Of a DNA stretch of 35,923 nucleotides, positions 14,529-23,270 are shown piece by piece (position 1 is the first letter of the stretch; each line of letters begins with the position of its first letter). Below the pieces are notes generated by a model, which worked only from the letters and a program-made list of their open reading frames with translations, did no database searches and was not told the origin of the DNA. The stretch covers positions 1-35,923 of the forward strand of contig JAFDVN010000053.1 of NCBI GenBank assembly GCA_018269025.1, given 5' to 3'. The DNA is from Acidobacteriota bacterium. Lineage in GTDB: Bacteria > Acidobacteriota > Holophagae > Holophagales > Holophagaceae. Made by a program: the position numbers and the translations under genes.

Positions 14529-14581
14529 TTTTCCCTGGCGCCATCCCCTCGCCGGGATGAGACTTGCGGGCAAGGACCCCC

Positions 14582-17500
14582 ATGCAGCGCACACGGAATG
14601 GACTGGGCCTGGCGGCCCTCGTGTTCGGCGTCTATCTCCTGACGCTGGCGTTGCCTGTGCGGGCGCAGGATCTCGGAACGCCCTTCGTCCGCAACTTCAC
14701 CCCAAAGGAATACGGAGCGGATTCCCAGAATTGGGCGGTGGTCCAGGACAACCGGGGGGTCGTCTACGCGGGCAACAACCAAGGTGTGCTTTCCTATGAT
14801 GGCGTTCACTGGCGGCTGATCCGCACGCCGGGGCGAAACACCGTCCGGTCCCTCGCCTTGGACGCGGAGGGCCGTGTCTTCGTGGGCTCGGTGGGGGAGA
14901 TCGGCTACCTCGCGCCGGACCCCTCCGGGCGGATGGCCTTCGTCTCCATCGCCGATAAGTTGCCCCCCGCCGCCCGAGCCTTCAGCGATGTCTGGGCGAC
15001 CCGCGCGACTTCGAGGGGCATCCTCTTTCAATCCCGCGAGGAGTTGCTGCTTTACAAGGATGGCGTCTTCCAAGTCTGGAAATCCTCCACGACCTTCCAT
15101 GTGGCCTTTTCCGTGGGCGACCGGATCTTCGTCCGCCAAAGGGAAGTGGGCCTCGAGGAAATGGTGGACGGCAAGCTCCAACTCGTTCCGGGTGGTGATC
15201 GCTTTGCCCATGAAAGCGTGTTCGCGATGGTGCCCATGCAGGACGGCATTCTCCTGGCGACCCGGAACATGGGCTTGTTCATTCTTTCCACCAAGGGCGT
15301 GGAACCCTTCAAGACGGAGGCAGACACCCTCCTGAAGAAGGACGCGCTCTACGGAGGCGCGGCCTTGCCGGATGGCACGGTCGCTTTGGCCACGATCCAA
15401 GGTGGCGTGATCATCCTCGATGCCCAAGGCCGGGTTCGGATGACCTTGGACCAATCCTCGGGCCTTCAAGGCGACAATGTGAAAGCGATCTACCCGGATG
15501 GTCATGGGTCGCTTTGGCTCGCCATGGACAATGGCTTGGCGAGGGTCGAATGGCCCTCTCCCTTCACGGTCCTGGACGAACGAAATGGGTTGAAGGGCAC
15601 GGTGTGGGCGGTGATGCGCCACGAGGGAAGGCTCTATGTCGCAACGGGACAAGGTGCCTATGGCCTGAAGCAACCGGATGCGCCGGGGAGTCGGCCCCGC
15701 TTCGAACAGGTGGCCAATTCCCAAACCCAGAGCCTCAGCTTTCTGGAATTCGATGGGAGGCTCCTGCTCGCGAACTCCCGGGGCGTTTTCGAGATCAAAG
15801 ACGACGCCGCTCGCCCCGTTCGTCCTTCGGGGAATGTGGCCATCACGCTTCTTCGCTCTCGCCGCGATCCGTCCCGCGTGTTCGTCGGGCTCCAGGGGGG
15901 ACTCGCCTCCATGCGCCTCTCGGGAGGTCAATGGCTTGATGAAGGCCTCATCCCGGGCGTGAGCGATGACATTTATTCCCTGGCGGAAGATTCCAACGGG
16001 CGCCTTTGGCTTGGGACCGGCGGACAGGGGGCGCTGCGGGTCACCTTCGGCCCGAGCTGGTCCGGAGGCGCGGCGAGTCCACCCCCTCGTGTGGACCGCT
16101 TCGGCACCGCCCAGGGGCTTCCCCCCAATCAGATTCTCGTGAAGGAATTCGAGGGTGAGCCGCTCTTCGCGACCCACGCGGGTCTTCTGCGATTTGAGGG
16201 GAACTCTGGACTCTTCTCGCCCGACCCGCGCTTCTCAAGCTTGTTCCCAGAAGGATCAAGGTGGGTGAAGGTCCTGACTCCCTGCGACCACGGCGAACTT
16301 TGGATGGACACGCTCAACGAGACGACGGGCCAGCACGAGAGCGGTCTGGCACGCCCCGGCAAGGATGGATCCTACGCGTGGGATCCGACCCGACTCCGCC
16401 GCGTCTCCGACACTGCGGTGGAATCCATCTATCCGGGACCTTCAGGCTTGGTGTGGTTCGGAGGTCCGGATGGCCTCATCCGCTATGACCTTTCCGTGCC
16501 TCGCCCCATGGATCGTCCGTTCCCTGTCCTGATCCGCGGCATTCATGTGAAGGATGGGCCCTTCCTTCCCTCCTCTTCGATGGGAACGAAACTTCCCTTC
16601 CGCCAGAACGCGCTCCGGTTCGATTTCGCCGCACCGGGCCAGGATCAGAGTTCCGGCCTCCATTATCAGGCGATGCTGGAAGGCTATGACCACGCATGGG
16701 GCGCCTGGTCGTTGGACACTTCGAAGGAGTACACCAACCTCCGGGAAGGGGACTATCGGTTCCGCGTGAAGGCTCGAAACGCCTTTGGAAAGGTGACGGG
16801 GGAGGCGATATTCCCATTCCAGGTGCTTCCACCCTGGTATCGGACCTGGTGGGCCTGGCTGCTCTGGGTCGCCTGCGCGGGAGGCGTTCTCGCCGCCGGG
16901 ATCGGCGCACGGACGCGCTTCCTTCATCAACGGGCGGAACGCCTGGAAACCAAGGTGGCTGAAGCCACGGAAGAGCTACGGGAGCGGGAGCAGCTCCTCG
17001 CCCACCAAGCCGCCGATCTGGAGAACGCAAACCGCGCGCTCCACGCGCTGAACGACCAGAAGGACCAGTACCTCGGCCTCGTGGCGCACGATCTTCGCAA
17101 CCCGCTGCACGGCATCCTGCTCACGGCGGAAAACCTCGGCGAGGAATCCGCGGACCCTGCGGTTCGTCAATCCGCCGCGAAGATCATGCGAACCGCCGAG
17201 GACATGGGCGGGCTCATCGGCCGTTTCCTGGATATCGCGGCCATTGACGCGGGGACGGTGAAAGCCAACCTCGAGTCCATTCCCTTGGAGGCGCTCGTCC
17301 ATGAGGCCATCATCGCGATGGTTCCCTTGGCCAAGGCCAAGGCCATCACGATGCAGCCTGAAATTTCTCCTGGCATACCCATGGTCGAGGCGGATCACAC
17401 TTTCGCGAAGGAGATCCTCGCCAACCTCCTTTCGAATGCGATCAAATTCTCGCCCACGGGCAGTCGCGTCATTCTTCGCCTGGAATCGGCAAACGAAGAA

Positions 17501-17731
17501 GTGACCCTCTCCGTGGAAGACCAGGGGCCCGGCCTCACCGAGGAAGACAAGCGCCGCCTCTTCGGCCGATTCGCCCGCTTGAGCGCCCAACCCACCGCAG
17601 GCGAAGGTTCCGTGGGCCTCGGCCTTTCCATCGTCAAGCATATGGTCGAAGCGTGCGGCGGCCGAATCTGGGTGGACAGCGCCGAAGGGCAGGGCGCGGC
17701 CTTCCGCGTGGCGTTTCGGAGGGCGGACTAA
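14582..17731 (+). CDS. Sensor histidine kinase with Y_Y_Y beta-propeller sensor domain
   Basis: The 1049-residue protein has a signal peptide (LAALVFGVYLLTLALPVRAQ) and a long periplasmic region of repeated propeller blades (for example VVQDNRGVVYAGNNQGVLSYDG and EDSNGRLWLGTGGQGALRV). A Y_Y_Y immunoglobulin-like domain follows (LHYQAMLEGYDHAWGAWS...YRFRVKARNAFG). One membrane helix lies at about 756-777, then a coiled coil. The DHp domain has H836 in VAHDLRNPLHGIL. The ATPase domain has the N box NLLSNAIKFSP and the G boxes EDQGPGLTEED and VGLGLSIVKHM. Unlike Bacteroides hybrid regulators it has no receiver or AraC output, so an unlinked response regulator is expected. AAGGA lies five bases before the ATG. 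Ligand unknown, perhaps a polysaccharide product. Confidence 0.88.
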   Translation: MQRTRNGLGLAALVFGVYLLTLALPVRAQDLGTPFVRNFTPKEYGADSQNWAVVQDNRGVVYAGNNQGVLSYDGVHWRLIRTPGRNTVRSLALDAEGRVFVGSVGEIGYLAPDPSGRMAFVSIADKLPPAARAFSDVWATRATSRGILFQSREELLLYKDGVFQVWKSSTTFHVAFSVGDRIFVRQREVGLEEMVDGKLQLVPGGDRFAHESVFAMVPMQDGILLATRNMGLFILSTKGVEPFKTEADTLLKKDALYGGAALPDGTVALATIQGGVIILDAQGRVRMTLDQSSGLQGDNVKAIYPDGHGSLWLAMDNGLARVEWPSPFTVLDERNGLKGTVWAVMRHEGRLYVATGQGAYGLKQPDAPGSRPRFEQVANSQTQSLSFLEFDGRLLLANSRGVFEIKDDAARPVRPSGNVAITLLRSRRDPSRVFVGLQGGLASMRLSGGQWLDEGLIPGVSDDIYSLAEDSNGRLWLGTGGQGALRVTFGPSWSGGAASPPPRVDRFGTAQGLPPNQILVKEFEGEPLFATHAGLLRFEGNSGLFSPDPRFSSLFPEGSRWVKVLTPCDHGELWMDTLNETTGQHESGLARPGKDGSYAWDPTRLRRVSDTAVESIYPGPSGLVWFGGPDGLIRYDLSVPRPMDRPFPVLIRGIHVKDGPFLPSSSMGTKLPFRQNALRFDFAAPGQDQSSGLHYQAMLEGYDHAWGAWSLDTSKEYTNLREGDYRFRVKARNAFGKVTGEAIFPFQVLPPWYRTWWAWLLWVACAGGVLAAGIGARTRFLHQRAERLETKVAEATEELREREQLLAHQAADLENANRALHALNDQKDQYLGLVAHDLRNPLHGILLTAENLGEESADPAVRQSAAKIMRTAEDMGGLIGRFLDIAAIDAGTVKANLESIPLEALVHEAIIAMVPLAKAKAITMQPEISPGIPMVEADHTFAKEILANLLSNAIKFSPTGSRVILRLESANEEVTLSVEDQGPGLTEEDKRRLFGRFARLSAQPTAGEGSVGLGLSIVKHMVEACGGRIWVDSAEGQGAAFRVAFRRAD

Positions 17732-19120: not shown

Positions 19121-19234
19121 GGGGAACTCCTCCCTCAACCCTAGCGCGGACGGGGCGAATCAGGGGCGGCTCGCGAGAGGGCTTGAAATATCCGAGGCCT
19201 CCACCCATGCTTGGCGGGTTCCTCCGGAGCCCGC

Positions 19235-20857
19235 GTGGGCGTCGTCATCCAGGTACCCGGCAAAGGGCGCTGCGCCCTCGACGCGGCGCAGCCTGAGGTG
19301 ACGGTGGGGAGGGGCTCGGGCAATGTCCTCGTGCTGGAAGACGGCATGTTGAGTCGACACCACGCCCGCTGTTTCCTCAAGGAGAACCGGGCCTGGGTGG
19401 AAGATCTGGGGTCGCGCCATGGCACCTTCCTGAATGGTCACCGTGTGGAATACCCCGTGGCGATCCAGGAGGGGGACCGATTGCTCGTGGGCCGCACGGA
19501 GATCCGCATCTTGCCCCCCGATCAGGACCCGACCAAGCCTTCCGGCACGGTGGTCGTCGAGGATCATCCCCATCCGGCGTTGACCCTCGTCCGCCCTCTA
19601 AGCGAGTTGTTCAGCAAGGCCGGTCCGAGCGATGGGCGCTGGTCCGAAGCCCTGGACTTCCTCCATGACGCGAGCCTGGACCTGCTCAAGGAGGCGGATC
19701 CGAGGGTCATGCTCGAGCGCATGGCCAAGGGCCTGCATGGATTCCTCAAACCCCAACGGGTCGCCATCCTACTCCGCCAGCCCGACGGGGAGTTGGAGAT
19801 GACCGCCTACGCGGGCAAGGCCCAGACCGAGCCCTTTCGCATCTCCAAGAATCTCGTCGCCAAGGTGCTGGAACAGCAGGAGGCGGTGCTGCTTCGGGAT
19901 CCGGCTCTGGATGCCGCGTACCAATCCGCCAGCATGGTTCTTAGCCAGATCAGCTCGGCCATCGTCACGCCCCTCGCCTTGGATGGGCAGGTGGAAGGCC
20001 TGCTGTATGTGGACGCCCGCATTCCGCGCGATCCCTTCACGGAAGAGGATCTTCGCCTCGTCTCCAGCCTCGCGCACATGGCCGCCGCCAAGCTGCAGCA
20101 GACCCGGCTGCTGTCTGAGGTCGCTCATAAACGGAAGATGGAAGAAGAACTCGCCCTGGCGCGGCGCATCCAGGAGCGGTTGATGCCGCTGCTTCCCCCG
20201 GAGCTGCCCGGCTTCGAACTCGCGTCGCTTCACGAGCCCAGCCGCCAGGTCTCGGGCGACCTCTTCGGGCACTTTCCGGGGCCCGAGGGCAGCGCCTGGC
20301 TGTGGGTGGCGGATGTGAGCGGAAAGGGGCTCGGGCCCGGCCTGCTCATGGCCACCATGCAGGCCTACCTGGATGCCTGGGCGGATAACAGCTCGGACCC
20401 TGGGCCCCTGGCGGATCGCTTGAGCCACACCCTCGCCCGCCACACCACCCGCAACCGCTACATCACGGCCTTTCTCCTGAGGGCCGAGCCCGGCGGGACC
20501 ATTCAGTATTGCAACGCCGGCCACAATCCCGGGCTGCTTCGTCGGGCGGATGGAAGTTTGGAACAGCTTGAAAGCCAAGGCATGCCCCTGGCGCTCTTCC
20601 CTGAGCAAGCGCATGGCTCATCCCACCTCACCCTGGCACCCGGGGATATGCTCGCCATCTTCACGGATGGCATCACCGAAGCCGCTCCGGCGGATGGGGA
20701 GGACTTCGAGCTCACCGGCCTCCAGGCCGTTCTGGATCGCCATGCGTCCGAACCCCTACCCCAAGTGATCGCCCGCATCGCCGAAGCGCTCCATGAACAC
20801 ACCCAAGGCGGCCCATTGGCGGATGACCGGACGCTGCTCCTCATCCGACGGAGGTAG
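19235..20857 (+). CDS. FHA-GAF-PP2C (SpoIIE/RsbU-type) serine/threonine phosphatase
   Basis: The roughly 540-residue protein has an N-terminal FHA domain (VGRGSGN...LSRHHARCF...DLGSRHGTFLNG), which should bind phosphothreonine peptides. A GAF domain (about 150-290) and a short linker coil (KMEEELALARRIQERLMP) follow. The PP2C SpoIIE-type domain has metal-binding aspartates in SGDLFGHF, VADVSGKGLGP, FTDGITEA and ADDRTLLL. Such proteins dephosphorylate anti-sigma-factor antagonists or other partners. GTG at 19235 is chosen since GGAG precedes it by five bases; TTG at 19211 in the same frame is an alternative. It opens a three-gene rightward run with yhbY and the kinase-like gene, with 9-bp and 10-bp gaps. 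Confidence 0.88.
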   Translation: MGVVIQVPGKGRCALDAAQPEVTVGRGSGNVLVLEDGMLSRHHARCFLKENRAWVEDLGSRHGTFLNGHRVEYPVAIQEGDRLLVGRTEIRILPPDQDPTKPSGTVVVEDHPHPALTLVRPLSELFSKAGPSDGRWSEALDFLHDASLDLLKEADPRVMLERMAKGLHGFLKPQRVAILLRQPDGELEMTAYAGKAQTEPFRISKNLVAKVLEQQEAVLLRDPALDAAYQSASMVLSQISSAIVTPLALDGQVEGLLYVDARIPRDPFTEEDLRLVSSLAHMAAAKLQQTRLLSEVAHKRKMEEELALARRIQERLMPLLPPELPGFELASLHEPSRQVSGDLFGHFPGPEGSAWLWVADVSGKGLGPGLLMATMQAYLDAWADNSSDPGPLADRLSHTLARHTTRNRYITAFLLRAEPGGTIQYCNAGHNPGLLRRADGSLEQLESQGMPLALFPEQAHGSSHLTLAPGDMLAIFTDGITEAAPADGEDFELTGLQAVLDRHASEPLPQVIARIAEALHEHTQGGPLADDRTLLLIRRR

Positions 20858-20866
20858 ACTGGGGGT

Positions 20867-21169
20867 ATGCCCAGCCTCACTCCCAAGCAGCGCCAGTTCC
20901 TGAAAGCGAAGGCCCATTCGCTCAAGCCCCTCCTCCAGATCGGCAAGGCTGGGCTCACCCCCGCCCTGGTGGAAGAGTTGGACCGGGTGTTGGATGTCCA
21001 CGAGCTGGTGAAGGTGAAGCTCAATGACAACACCTTCGAGGACGAGCCCGGCGTGGTCGCGGCCCTGAACGCAAAGGTCGCGGGTCTCCACCATGTCTGG
21101 ACCATTGGCCATACCCTGCTCCTCTTCCGCCCCAGCCGGGAGCGCGCCACGCGCTTTCCGCTGCCCTAG
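20867..21169 (+). CDS. yhbY: YhbY-family (CRM domain) RNA-binding protein
   Basis: This 100-residue protein consists of a single CRS1-YhbY domain: TPKQRQFLKAKAHSLKPL, the conserved GKAG loop at 27-30 (QIGKAGLTPALVEELD), then VKVKLNDNTFED. YhbY associates with pre-50S ribosomes and is thought to aid large-subunit assembly. It lies between two regulatory genes with gaps of about 10 bp, so it is likely cotranscribed with them; whether this is functional or only neighbourly is unknown. Confidence 0.88.
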   Translation: MPSLTPKQRQFLKAKAHSLKPLLQIGKAGLTPALVEELDRVLDVHELVKVKLNDNTFEDEPGVVAALNAKVAGLHHVWTIGHTLLLFRPSRERATRFPLP

Positions 21170-21179
21170 GCGGGGTCCG

Positions 21180-23270
21180 ATGCCCTTCCTGTCCTGGCAC
21201 GAAGGTCCCAAATTGCAGCGGCAGCGCCTGGAAGGCGCGCGTGTGCTGGGAGCGGACCCGATGCGCGCCACGGTGGTGAGTCCCATCGTGGGACCGCCGG
21301 TGCAGGCCATGATCCAACCCGAAGGCATTCACTGGAGGTTGCGCCCTCTGGAAGGCATGGTCATCCGCCGGGAAGGCGAGATGGTGCCCGCTTCGGGGAT
21401 CCTCCTCGGCGATGGGGATGTGGCGAACCTGGGCGCCTGGGAGATCCGGTTTTCCCACCGGTTTCCCGGACTTGATCCGGAGCGGTTCCTGGAGACATCC
21501 GGCCCGCTTCCGCTCCCCTCCGGAACCGCCGCGACCGCATCCCTTCGGTGGGTGGCAGGACTGGCCCAACGGCTGGAGCAGGGCCTCCTCGCGGATGAGG
21601 ACCCGACCTCCCTTGCCAAGCGGCTCCTTGAGGAGGCCTGTTCCTTTCTGGCCGCCGATGCGGGGCTCCACCTCCGCCAGTCCGCTTCCGCGCCTTGGCG
21701 GGTGATCCATCGCGTCGGTCTTTCCGTCGAGGATCTGGAGCCCGCCCATTCCTTGGTGGCCCACGCCCTGATGGATGAGGTCAGCCTCCTCTCCAACGAT
21801 CCCTGGCTCGACCCCCGCGCCCTCCGCGCACCCTTAGGGTCACCCTCGCTCGGCCCCATGCTCGTGGCGCCCGTCTTCCTCGCGGAGGGACTGGATGAAG
21901 GCCCTGAAGGCGCCTTTGTCCTCATTCGTCGCCCAGGATCTCCCACTTTCAGCGCTCCCGACCTGAGCCTGCTCCGCAGCGCGGCGGATCTCGCGGCGCT
22001 CGCCTACCGGCTCAACCTCGTCCATCGTCGCCTGCTCACCCACGCGGAGATGGAAAGTCAGATCCTCCACCTCCGGCGGGATTTGGAACGGCAGGATGAC
22101 CGCCAAGGCCACCTCCTTTCCGCGCTCCGGGGGAGCTTGGTCCGCGAGCAGGCGATGCTTCGGACGCTTGACGGCCCGTCCGCGGAAGCGTTGCGGCGTC
22201 ATCTCTCCTTCATGCTGCACCTCGTGGAGGACGGCATGACCACGGATCCTGGACTGGCACCTCCTCCGGGCCGCTCTTGGCGTCTTGTGGACATCCAGCG
22301 GGAAATCCTGGAAGGATGGACGCCCCTCGCGGAAAGCCTCGGCTTGCGGTTCGAGGAAGGCCCCGCGCCGGATTCCCAAGTCTGGCTCGGCGGCGGTCCC
22401 GTGTTCGAAGCGCTGCGGAGCCTGCTCGACACGCTGTTGCTCCAGCTTCCCTCCGAAACCCGTCTGTCCTTGAGCTGGAGCGAAGAGCCAGGACGGTGGT
22501 GCCTGGATGTGGCCCTCCCTTCGGGAACCCCACGGGTGAGCCCGGATGCGTGGAGTCGCGGCGTGTTCGCAACATCCGGCCTCGAATGGCGTTGGGCGGA
22601 TGCCCGCCTCACCCTGGCGTTCCGAGTCGCCGAGCATGCGGCCGTCGTCACTCCGGACCGCCCCATGCTCGGGCTCGTCACCGAGGACATGGGGCTCATC
22701 GGTCTGTTCCAAGGCGCGGCGGATTCCGATGATCTCGCCCTTTTCCCGCTGGAAGAGGCCCCGCCTTCGCCACCGCTCCCACCCTTCGAGACACTCGTGG
22801 TGGACGCGCGCGGCGTGAAGGATGTGATCGCCTGCCTTCAGGCCTACCGCGCCCATCCCACCTTCGCGACCACCCCCATCCTCGTCGTCCGGGCGAAAGA
22901 ACTGGAAGGCCCCGAGCTCTTGGCAGCGGGCGCGACGGATTGGCTCGCGGAAGCGTTGCGTTGGGAATCGCTCCATCACCGACTCCAGACCCTGCGGCGT
23001 CACCGGGAGTTGCAGAAGAAGGGAAGGGCCTCCGAGCGCCTGGAAACCGTCCGGCAAATGGCGGGCACCCTCAAACATGAGATCAACAACCCCCTCGCGG
23101 TGATCTCCCTCCAAACCGAGCTGCTTCAGCGGAAGTTTCCCGACGAGCCCAAGCTGGCCAAGATTTCCGAGCAGGTCCAGCGCATCCAAGGCCTCATGCA
23201 AATGCTTCAGAAGATGCGCGAGCCCGGGGATGAGGATTACCCCGGCGGCACCAACATCCTCCGCCTCTGA
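21180..23270 (+). CDS. Atypical kinase-like signalling protein: FHA-like, GAF-like, pseudo-ATPase, receiver-like, C-terminal DHp
   Basis: The 696-residue soluble protein starts with a region resembling a degenerate FHA domain (about 1-95) and a GAF-like region (115-285), then coil. Residues 355-480 look like a histidine-kinase ATPase domain (WTPLAESLGLRFEEGP...VFEALRSLLDTLLLQL) but lack the catalytic Asn and the glycine boxes. A receiver-like fold (about 525-605, LVVDARG...ILVVRAKELEG) follows, also without a clear phospho-Asp set. The end is a good DHp helix with H633 in GTLKHEINNPLAVISLQ, and the protein stops about 60 residues later with no ATPase after it. Phosphate for H633 would have to come from another kinase. 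The ATG at 21180 is 10 bp after the yhbY stop. Domain calls other than DHp are tentative. Confidence 0.65.
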   Translation: MPFLSWHEGPKLQRQRLEGARVLGADPMRATVVSPIVGPPVQAMIQPEGIHWRLRPLEGMVIRREGEMVPASGILLGDGDVANLGAWEIRFSHRFPGLDPERFLETSGPLPLPSGTAATASLRWVAGLAQRLEQGLLADEDPTSLAKRLLEEACSFLAADAGLHLRQSASAPWRVIHRVGLSVEDLEPAHSLVAHALMDEVSLLSNDPWLDPRALRAPLGSPSLGPMLVAPVFLAEGLDEGPEGAFVLIRRPGSPTFSAPDLSLLRSAADLAALAYRLNLVHRRLLTHAEMESQILHLRRDLERQDDRQGHLLSALRGSLVREQAMLRTLDGPSAEALRRHLSFMLHLVEDGMTTDPGLAPPPGRSWRLVDIQREILEGWTPLAESLGLRFEEGPAPDSQVWLGGGPVFEALRSLLDTLLLQLPSETRLSLSWSEEPGRWCLDVALPSGTPRVSPDAWSRGVFATSGLEWRWADARLTLAFRVAEHAAVVTPDRPMLGLVTEDMGLIGLFQGAADSDDLALFPLEEAPPSPPLPPFETLVVDARGVKDVIACLQAYRAHPTFATTPILVVRAKELEGPELLAAGATDWLAEALRWESLHHRLQTLRRHRELQKKGRASERLETVRQMAGTLKHEINNPLAVISLQTELLQRKFPDEPKLAKISEQVQRIQGLMQMLQKMREPGDEDYPGGTNILRL

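Follow-up and report, generated by a model that had tools for sequence, protein, structure and literature searches.

Unorthodox hybrid histidine kinases of the BvgS/ArcB type have the domain order DHp-CA-REC-HPt, with the phosphotransfer domain placed after the receiver. The dimeric histidine phosphotransferases ChpT and Spo0B carry an active His on a DHp four-helix bundle and make no use of ATP; in ChpT, the ATPase-like domain is degenerate (PMC3433190). In the Rcs system, the HPt domain of RcsD gets its phosphate in trans from the receiver of RcsC (PMC7418988). Finally, proteins of the P2CS category of incomplete histidine kinases, also referred to as “HisKA, no HATPase,” have been catalogued and are uncharacterised according to the available text of two surveys (PMC5847659, PMC3591291). 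The available part of the former also lists archaeal nonenzymatic HK-like proteins of the REC-PAS/GAF-HisKA type, such as AF_1472, and that of the latter counts 1556 HisKA proteins without HATPase among the 42417 in SMART.

A protein that bears on all these systems is encoded on a 35,923-nucleotide stretch of a contig from a member of the Acidobacteriota (“the window,” meaning the whole stretch of DNA that was analysed). The open reading frame at positions 21180..23270 (+) starts with the ATG at 21180, where the motif MP[YFW]LSW opens all orthologues, and specifies a protein of 696 amino acids. This product is best explained as a soluble signalling protein, a descendant of a hybrid histidine kinase that has lost the catalytic capacity of both its kinase core and its receiver. 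Its domain order, FHA-GAF-pseudoDHp-pseudoCA-pseudoREC-DHp, is the ordinary order of hybrid kinases with a decayed core and a DHp domain appended at the end, not a reversed one as the original prediction had it. The anatomy of the protein is well supported; the features of the locus are as follows.

14564-17731, complete propeller-type kinase gene (Reg_prop-HisKA-HATPase) upstream of the YhbY-target pair, with HATPase_c at 17393-17719
19211..20857, + strand, FHA-GAF-SpoIIE (PP2C-type phosphatase) gene, identified with Pfam
20867..21169, + strand, YhbY (CRS1_YhbY) gene, 10 bases upstream of the start at 21180 (Pfam E 4.4e-23)
21180..21479, + strand, N-terminal FHA-like domain (residues 1-100), degenerate in the window copy, recognised through Pfam in orthologues and residue conservation
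21597..22004, + strand, GAF domain (residues 140-275; Pfam GAF_2 E 4.1e-7, GAF E 9.9e-6)
22047..22265, + strand, degenerate first DHp-like helical hairpin lacking a phospho-accepting His (residues 290-362), from the AF2 model and hhalign
22266..22649, + strand, pseudo-ATPase (CA/Bergerat-like) domain with lost N-box and G-boxes (residues 363-490), from AF2 and Foldseek
22662..22979, + strand, pseudo-receiver domain (residues 495-600), from the PDB profile search and hhalign
22803..22805, + strand, D542, aligned with the acceptor Asp of receivers, invariant in 46/46 orthologues
23013..23225, + strand, C-terminal HisKA/DHp domain (residues 612-682), matched by Pfam HisKA in all 46 orthologues
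23076..23078, + strand, H633, the presumed phospho-accepting His, invariant in 46/46 and present in four short forms
23238..23270, + strand, conserved C-terminal tail YPGGTNILRL plus the stop codon (Y687, G690, and I693 in 46/46)

The only domains that Pfam reports in the product are a GAF domain and, at the C-terminus, a HisKA domain. The HisKA match (PF00512, residues 625-675) has an E value of 3.9e-8 and a score of 33.7 bits against a cut-off of 26.9, so the domain belongs to the HisKA family. The stop codon lies 63 residues past H633, which sits in the sequence LKHEINNPL; a DHp helix with H633 at the extreme C-terminus, followed by a stop some 60 residues later and by no nearby ATPase domain, had been read correctly from the DNA. 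Pfam finds no HATPase_c in this product or in any of the 46 orthologues, and in a genome-wide search the sole HATPase_c match of the contig was the one at 17393-17719; since that domain belongs to a separate upstream kinase, the DHp domain has no ATPase partner in cis. Among the 25 HisKA domains found in its own assembly (76% complete), all but this one share their frame with a HATPase match. The protein is consequently not a histidine kinase, a class whose members carry on one polypeptide a working HATPase_c domain that includes the N- and G-boxes, and it has the composition of an incomplete histidine kinase, i.e., sensors and a C-terminal HisKA domain with a conserved His and no HATPase.

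A search of 120 relatives returned matches in 70 genomes, and most members of the same family carry full-length or partial orthologues. The 46 full-length orthologues, all from one bacterial family, align end to end and share an identical end point; none has an ATPase domain after the DHp domain, an arrangement that the original prediction had named as a sign of truncation or sequencing error. Conservation climbs toward the C-terminus: mean pairwise identity, calculated without the window copy and the related protein L035, is 63% in FHA, 68% in GAF, 49% in the pseudo-DHp, 53% in the pseudo-CA, and 72% in the pseudo-REC domain, and it reaches 85% in the DHp domain with the tail (residues 612-696) and 93% in the surroundings of the H-box, where H633, E634, and N637 are invariant (46/46). 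These data bear on the simplest alternative, a truncated or decaying kinase (a pseudogene, or an error of sequencing or assembly), which would account for an FHA domain without ligand-binding residues in the window copy and for an eroded pseudo-kinase core. Such decay is vanishingly improbable in view of the invariant H-box and of L035, an independent public record that is 83% identical to the window protein; truncation, frameshift, pseudogene formation, and sequencing or assembly error are ruled out by 46 open full-length orthologues that all end alike. The window has its closest relative in L035, which groups with the same bacterial family; the title of that record, “Proteobacteria bacterium” (SZAS CTRL-27), may therefore be a wrong label.

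The kinase ancestry of the middle region was detectable only through profile-profile comparison and structure modelling. When compared by hhalign with 24 kinase DHp-CA cores from the fetched loci, residues 281-496 gave an E value of 7.9e-5, a score of 37.6, and a probability of 61%, and the match covered everything between the DHp helices and the end of the N-box helix; as controls, 60 shuffles of the same columns never scored above 21.2, and the reversed profile scored 15.1. The first hairpin alone (residues 281-362) showed no significant match to kinase cores (hhalign E 0.15), and the 46-orthologue alignment contains no conserved His at its H-box equivalent. In the AF2 model, computed from two sequences, residues 290-362 form two long helices and the secondary-structure elements of residues 363-490 follow the order of a CA domain; overall pLDDT is 57, with values of ∼70 to 89 across most of the CA part. 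The top Foldseek matches are kinase DHp-CA cores, including those of DivL and ChpT; the isolated CA domains of PhoQ (TMt 0.69) and VanS were matched as well. The N-box Asn positions are occupied by G414 in 44/46 and P418 in 42/46 orthologues (Ser and Thr in the window copy), and no G-boxes are visible in the pseudo-CA domain. No orthologue has a Pfam match for either the pseudo-kinase or the pseudo-receiver, NCBIfam gave nothing convincing, and a PDB profile search with the pseudo-kinase alignment returned no meaningful match. Taken together, the profile-profile and Foldseek matches and the absent motifs confirm that residues 281-496 are a homologue of kinase cores that has lost its catalytic residues, as foreseen in the description of an ATPase-like region devoid of its Asn and glycine boxes.

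The next segment, residues 495-600, is related to receivers (hhalign E 8.6e-8), its best PDB match by hmmsearch being the receiver of KdpE (E 5.3e-5). Both an ATPase-like and a receiver-like fold are thus detectable, the absence of which from a structure model had been put forward as evidence against the proposed architecture. The receiver-like nature of the segment had been recognised correctly, whereas the acceptor Asp, said to be unclear, is invariant: D542 occupies this position in the hhalign alignment, although the register is inexact, as the HMMER alignment to KdpE shifts D542 one position earlier. Of the five residues typical of receivers (acidic pair, acceptor Asp, Ser/Thr, and Lys), the acceptor Asp is invariant. 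The Lys position is taken by Glu or Asp and the Ser/Thr position by Arg (each in 45/46), and the first acidic residue is replaced by Thr or Ser. With the Lys and Ser/Thr lost, the segment is a pseudo-receiver by the definition in PMC12632262. The AF2 model of the pseudo-REC and DHp domains (two sequences) has a pLDDT of 46 and was disregarded, and the DHp domain was modelled at low confidence in both AF2 runs (two sequences each).

The middle of the protein is also dispensable. Four genomes (G027, G036, G038, and G041) encode, at the same locus downstream of YhbY, a shorter protein of ∼377 residues with the conserved start, in which FHA-GAF is joined straight to a DHp domain with an intact H-box and the whole pseudo-kinase/pseudo-receiver middle is gone; the joins fall inside coiled-coil linkers. 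A maximum-likelihood tree built from the regions common to all forms (midpoint rooted for drawing only) places these four in one clade (98/92) nested among the long forms, so a single loss of the middle is the simplest account. Because the middle was deleted and the DHp domain kept, the DHp domain is the part under selection and probably the one that carries the function, in place of the pseudo-kinase. The family offers a natural experiment in kinase decay: the core has eroded, and one clade has finally discarded it, yet the phospho-His domain has hardly changed.

At the other end of the protein, the original prediction of FHA-like and GAF-like inputs holds for GAF, which is found by Pfam, and for FHA across the family, of which the window copy has a degenerate version. 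Pfam FHA and Yop-YscD_cpl were matched in 44/46 orthologues and not in the window copy. The phosphothreonine-binding residues of FHA domains (GR, SxxH, NG), here R25, S39, R40, H42, N70, and G71, are present in 42 to 44 of the 46 orthologues and have been lost in the window copy and L035.

In all orthologous loci that extend far enough, the target gene adjoins YhbY. The FHA-GAF module of the phosphatase at 19211-20857 is homologous to that of the target (BLAST E 1e-12 to 1e-22 against target orthologues), and the order phosphatase-YhbY-target is seen only in the window, L035, G001, and G005; the shared module and this gene order suggest one input module serving two different outputs. The propeller kinase at 14564-17731 was considered as a cognate partner and rejected on synteny, as among the loci checked it lies near the target orthologue in only two genomes, G034 and G044, apart from the window itself. 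Kinase genes are not among the conserved neighbours in the orthologous loci, and none of the conserved genes downstream could be identified as one. Since the assembly is only 76% complete, candidate partners may be absent from it.

The best explanation of these features, to which we would give an even chance, is a sensor-gated phosphotransfer/phosphatase protein that acts in trans and has one working element, the C-terminal dimerising DHp domain. The earlier idea that the protein serves in phosphotransfer or as a scaffold and is supplied by another kinase fits all the findings, namely the lack of a functional ATPase in cis, the invariant His, Glu, and Asn, and the retention of DHp after loss of the middle; what does not stand is the domain order and the missing receiver Asp that went with it. 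For the phosphorylation of H633, the direction of transfer, and the partners, we infer the following scheme. The GAF domain (and in most relatives FHA as well) would set the conformation of the DHp four-helix bundle via the coiled-coil linkers. H633 would receive its phosphate in trans, from an ATPase domain that belongs to another kinase (a split kinase) or, in the manner of Spo0B and ChpT, by back-transfer from a phospho-receiver, and phospho-H633 would hand the phosphate on to a response regulator. When H633 is unphosphorylated, the HExxN motif could dephosphorylate the same regulator. In tested HisKA domains, the Glu/Asp beside the His is required only for the kinase reaction and the Asn/Thr only for the phosphatase reaction (PMC3510030), and the available text of PMC3591291 reports that the HisKA and HATPase domains of EnvZ remain active as separate polypeptides; the complete HExxN motif seen here fits, on these grounds, both phosphorylation in trans and phosphatase activity.

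The same motif could serve a dedicated response-regulator phosphatase, in which an FHA-GAF-gated DHp domain would bind a phospho-receiver, act through HExxN, and never itself be phosphorylated. N637 is invariant, the DHp domain of EnvZ or NtrB by itself suffices for phosphatase activity (PMC3510030), and this role has been proposed for archaeal HisKA proteins without HATPase in the available part of PMC5847659. Nevertheless, this reading appears unlikely, as H633 and E634 (the acidic residue used only in the kinase reaction in PMC3510030) are also invariant and a pure phosphatase would not obviously need them. The DHp domain could also pair with that of a full-length kinase and inhibit or redirect it, in which case the chemistry of the His would be irrelevant. 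DHp domains do dimerise, and GacS and a partner kinase provide a known case in which one sensor kinase regulates another (available text of PMC5992135). Such heterodimerisation is nonetheless somewhat unlikely here, given the near-complete constraint on every residue of the H-box, which goes beyond the expectation for a pure dimerisation surface. Moreover, kinases repurposed in this way can lose the His, an example being DivL, which has Tyr in place of the phospho-His and is named a tyrosine kinase among the Foldseek matches. For the preferred phosphotransfer/phosphatase protein acting in trans, the short form, with fewer than 400 residues, is a compact natural minimal version in which that role could be tested.

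HisKA proteins without HATPase occur elsewhere in the phylum, with the architectures REC-DHp (L057, L058, L061, L064, L150, L153, and L160-L168), REC-GAF-DHp (L067), Reg_prop-DHp-REC (L155, L158), GAF/PAS-DHp-REC (L156), and propeller-sensor-DHp (L210, its propeller being read from the sequence, not from Pfam). Those in L155:1208-4186, L158:1125-4250, L156:3192-5660, and L210 are large proteins with a Reg_prop propeller or GAF/PAS as the sensor and DHp or DHp-REC as the last part, and no ATPase domain lies between or after these parts; in L158, the H-box His itself is lost. A second ATPase-less family within the same bacterial family (L160-L168, L056, L059) consists of REC-DHp proteins of ∼245 amino acids with HELAQP or HALAQP and the tail KPYAxGxILDL. 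A plasmid search with a REC-DHp protein gave uninformative matches dominated by receiver domains. The acidic residue beside the His is not always present in the ATPase-less set (HALAQP in L163 and L167, HNINQP in L057); the members of this class may accordingly act in different ways.

ATPase-less DHp proteins have a common C-terminal tail, Y-x(2,5)-[MIV]-[LIV]-x-[LIF], where the single x before [LIF] is [DNKARE]. In the fetched loci, a set partly gathered with a model that contained the tail, it was found in 10 of 11 non-redundant ATPase-less C-terminal DHp domains and in none of 30 complete kinases. A DHp model that stopped short of most of the tail was also run against 21 genomes; there, the tail was present in all four classified ATPase-less proteins, two of which (L224 and L225) were already in the model, versus 0/45 complete kinases, classified by motif patterns (Fisher p 4.7e-6). 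The association is thus no more than suggestive. Possibly, although we regard this as doubtful, tail-bearing ATPase-less DHp domains are a distinct functional module, in which the tail would take the place of the linker into the ATPase domain and single out DHp domains built to cooperate, in trans, with an ATPase domain or receiver located on a different protein; several families of the phylum would contain this module, in proteins of the types REC-DHp, REC-GAF-DHp, propeller-sensor-DHp, propeller-DHp-REC, and FHA-GAF-pseudokinase-DHp. The findings suggest that “incomplete” HisKA proteins, which as a rule are annotated as kinases, are in many cases functional trans-acting parts of phosphorelays, and the tail provides a sequence signature with which such a role can be tested.

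Among known systems, the BvgS/ArcB-type kinases resemble the target in the order of their parts, except that in the target the first DHp, CA, and REC domains are inactive and the last domain is DHp, not HPt; its DHp domain thus occupies the HPt slot of unorthodox hybrid kinases. The same comparison applies to RcsD (PMC7418988), which likewise combines a sensor part, a kinase-like core that is inactive and less conserved, and, at the C-terminus, the His phosphotransfer domain on which its function rests. RcsD is, however, a membrane protein with an HPt end, whereas the target ends in HisKA/DHp (Pfam gives HisKA, not Hpt, at its C-terminus, so it is not of the RcsD type) and has an FHA-GAF input, a pseudo-receiver, and no linked RcsC-like partner. 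In ChpT, the degenerate CA domain follows the active DHp, whereas in the target the active DHp comes last, preceded by a degenerate core that contains a His-less DHp of its own. Incomplete histidine kinases share with the target the N-terminal sensors, the C-terminal HisKA domain with its conserved His, and the lack of HATPase; the available text gives no description of a pseudo-kinase/pseudo-receiver middle, an FHA-GAF input, or the tail in them. The remark that no described family with this order was known needs qualification, since the general class of HisKA proteins without HATPase is already on record in the available parts of PMC5847659 and PMC3591291. RcsD (PMC7418988) and ChpT (PMC3433190) show a logic comparable to that of the target; within the open-licence literature, three features are apparently new, namely the order FHA-GAF-pseudokinase-pseudoreceiver-DHp, the reduction of this architecture to FHA-GAF-DHp, and the signature in the tail.
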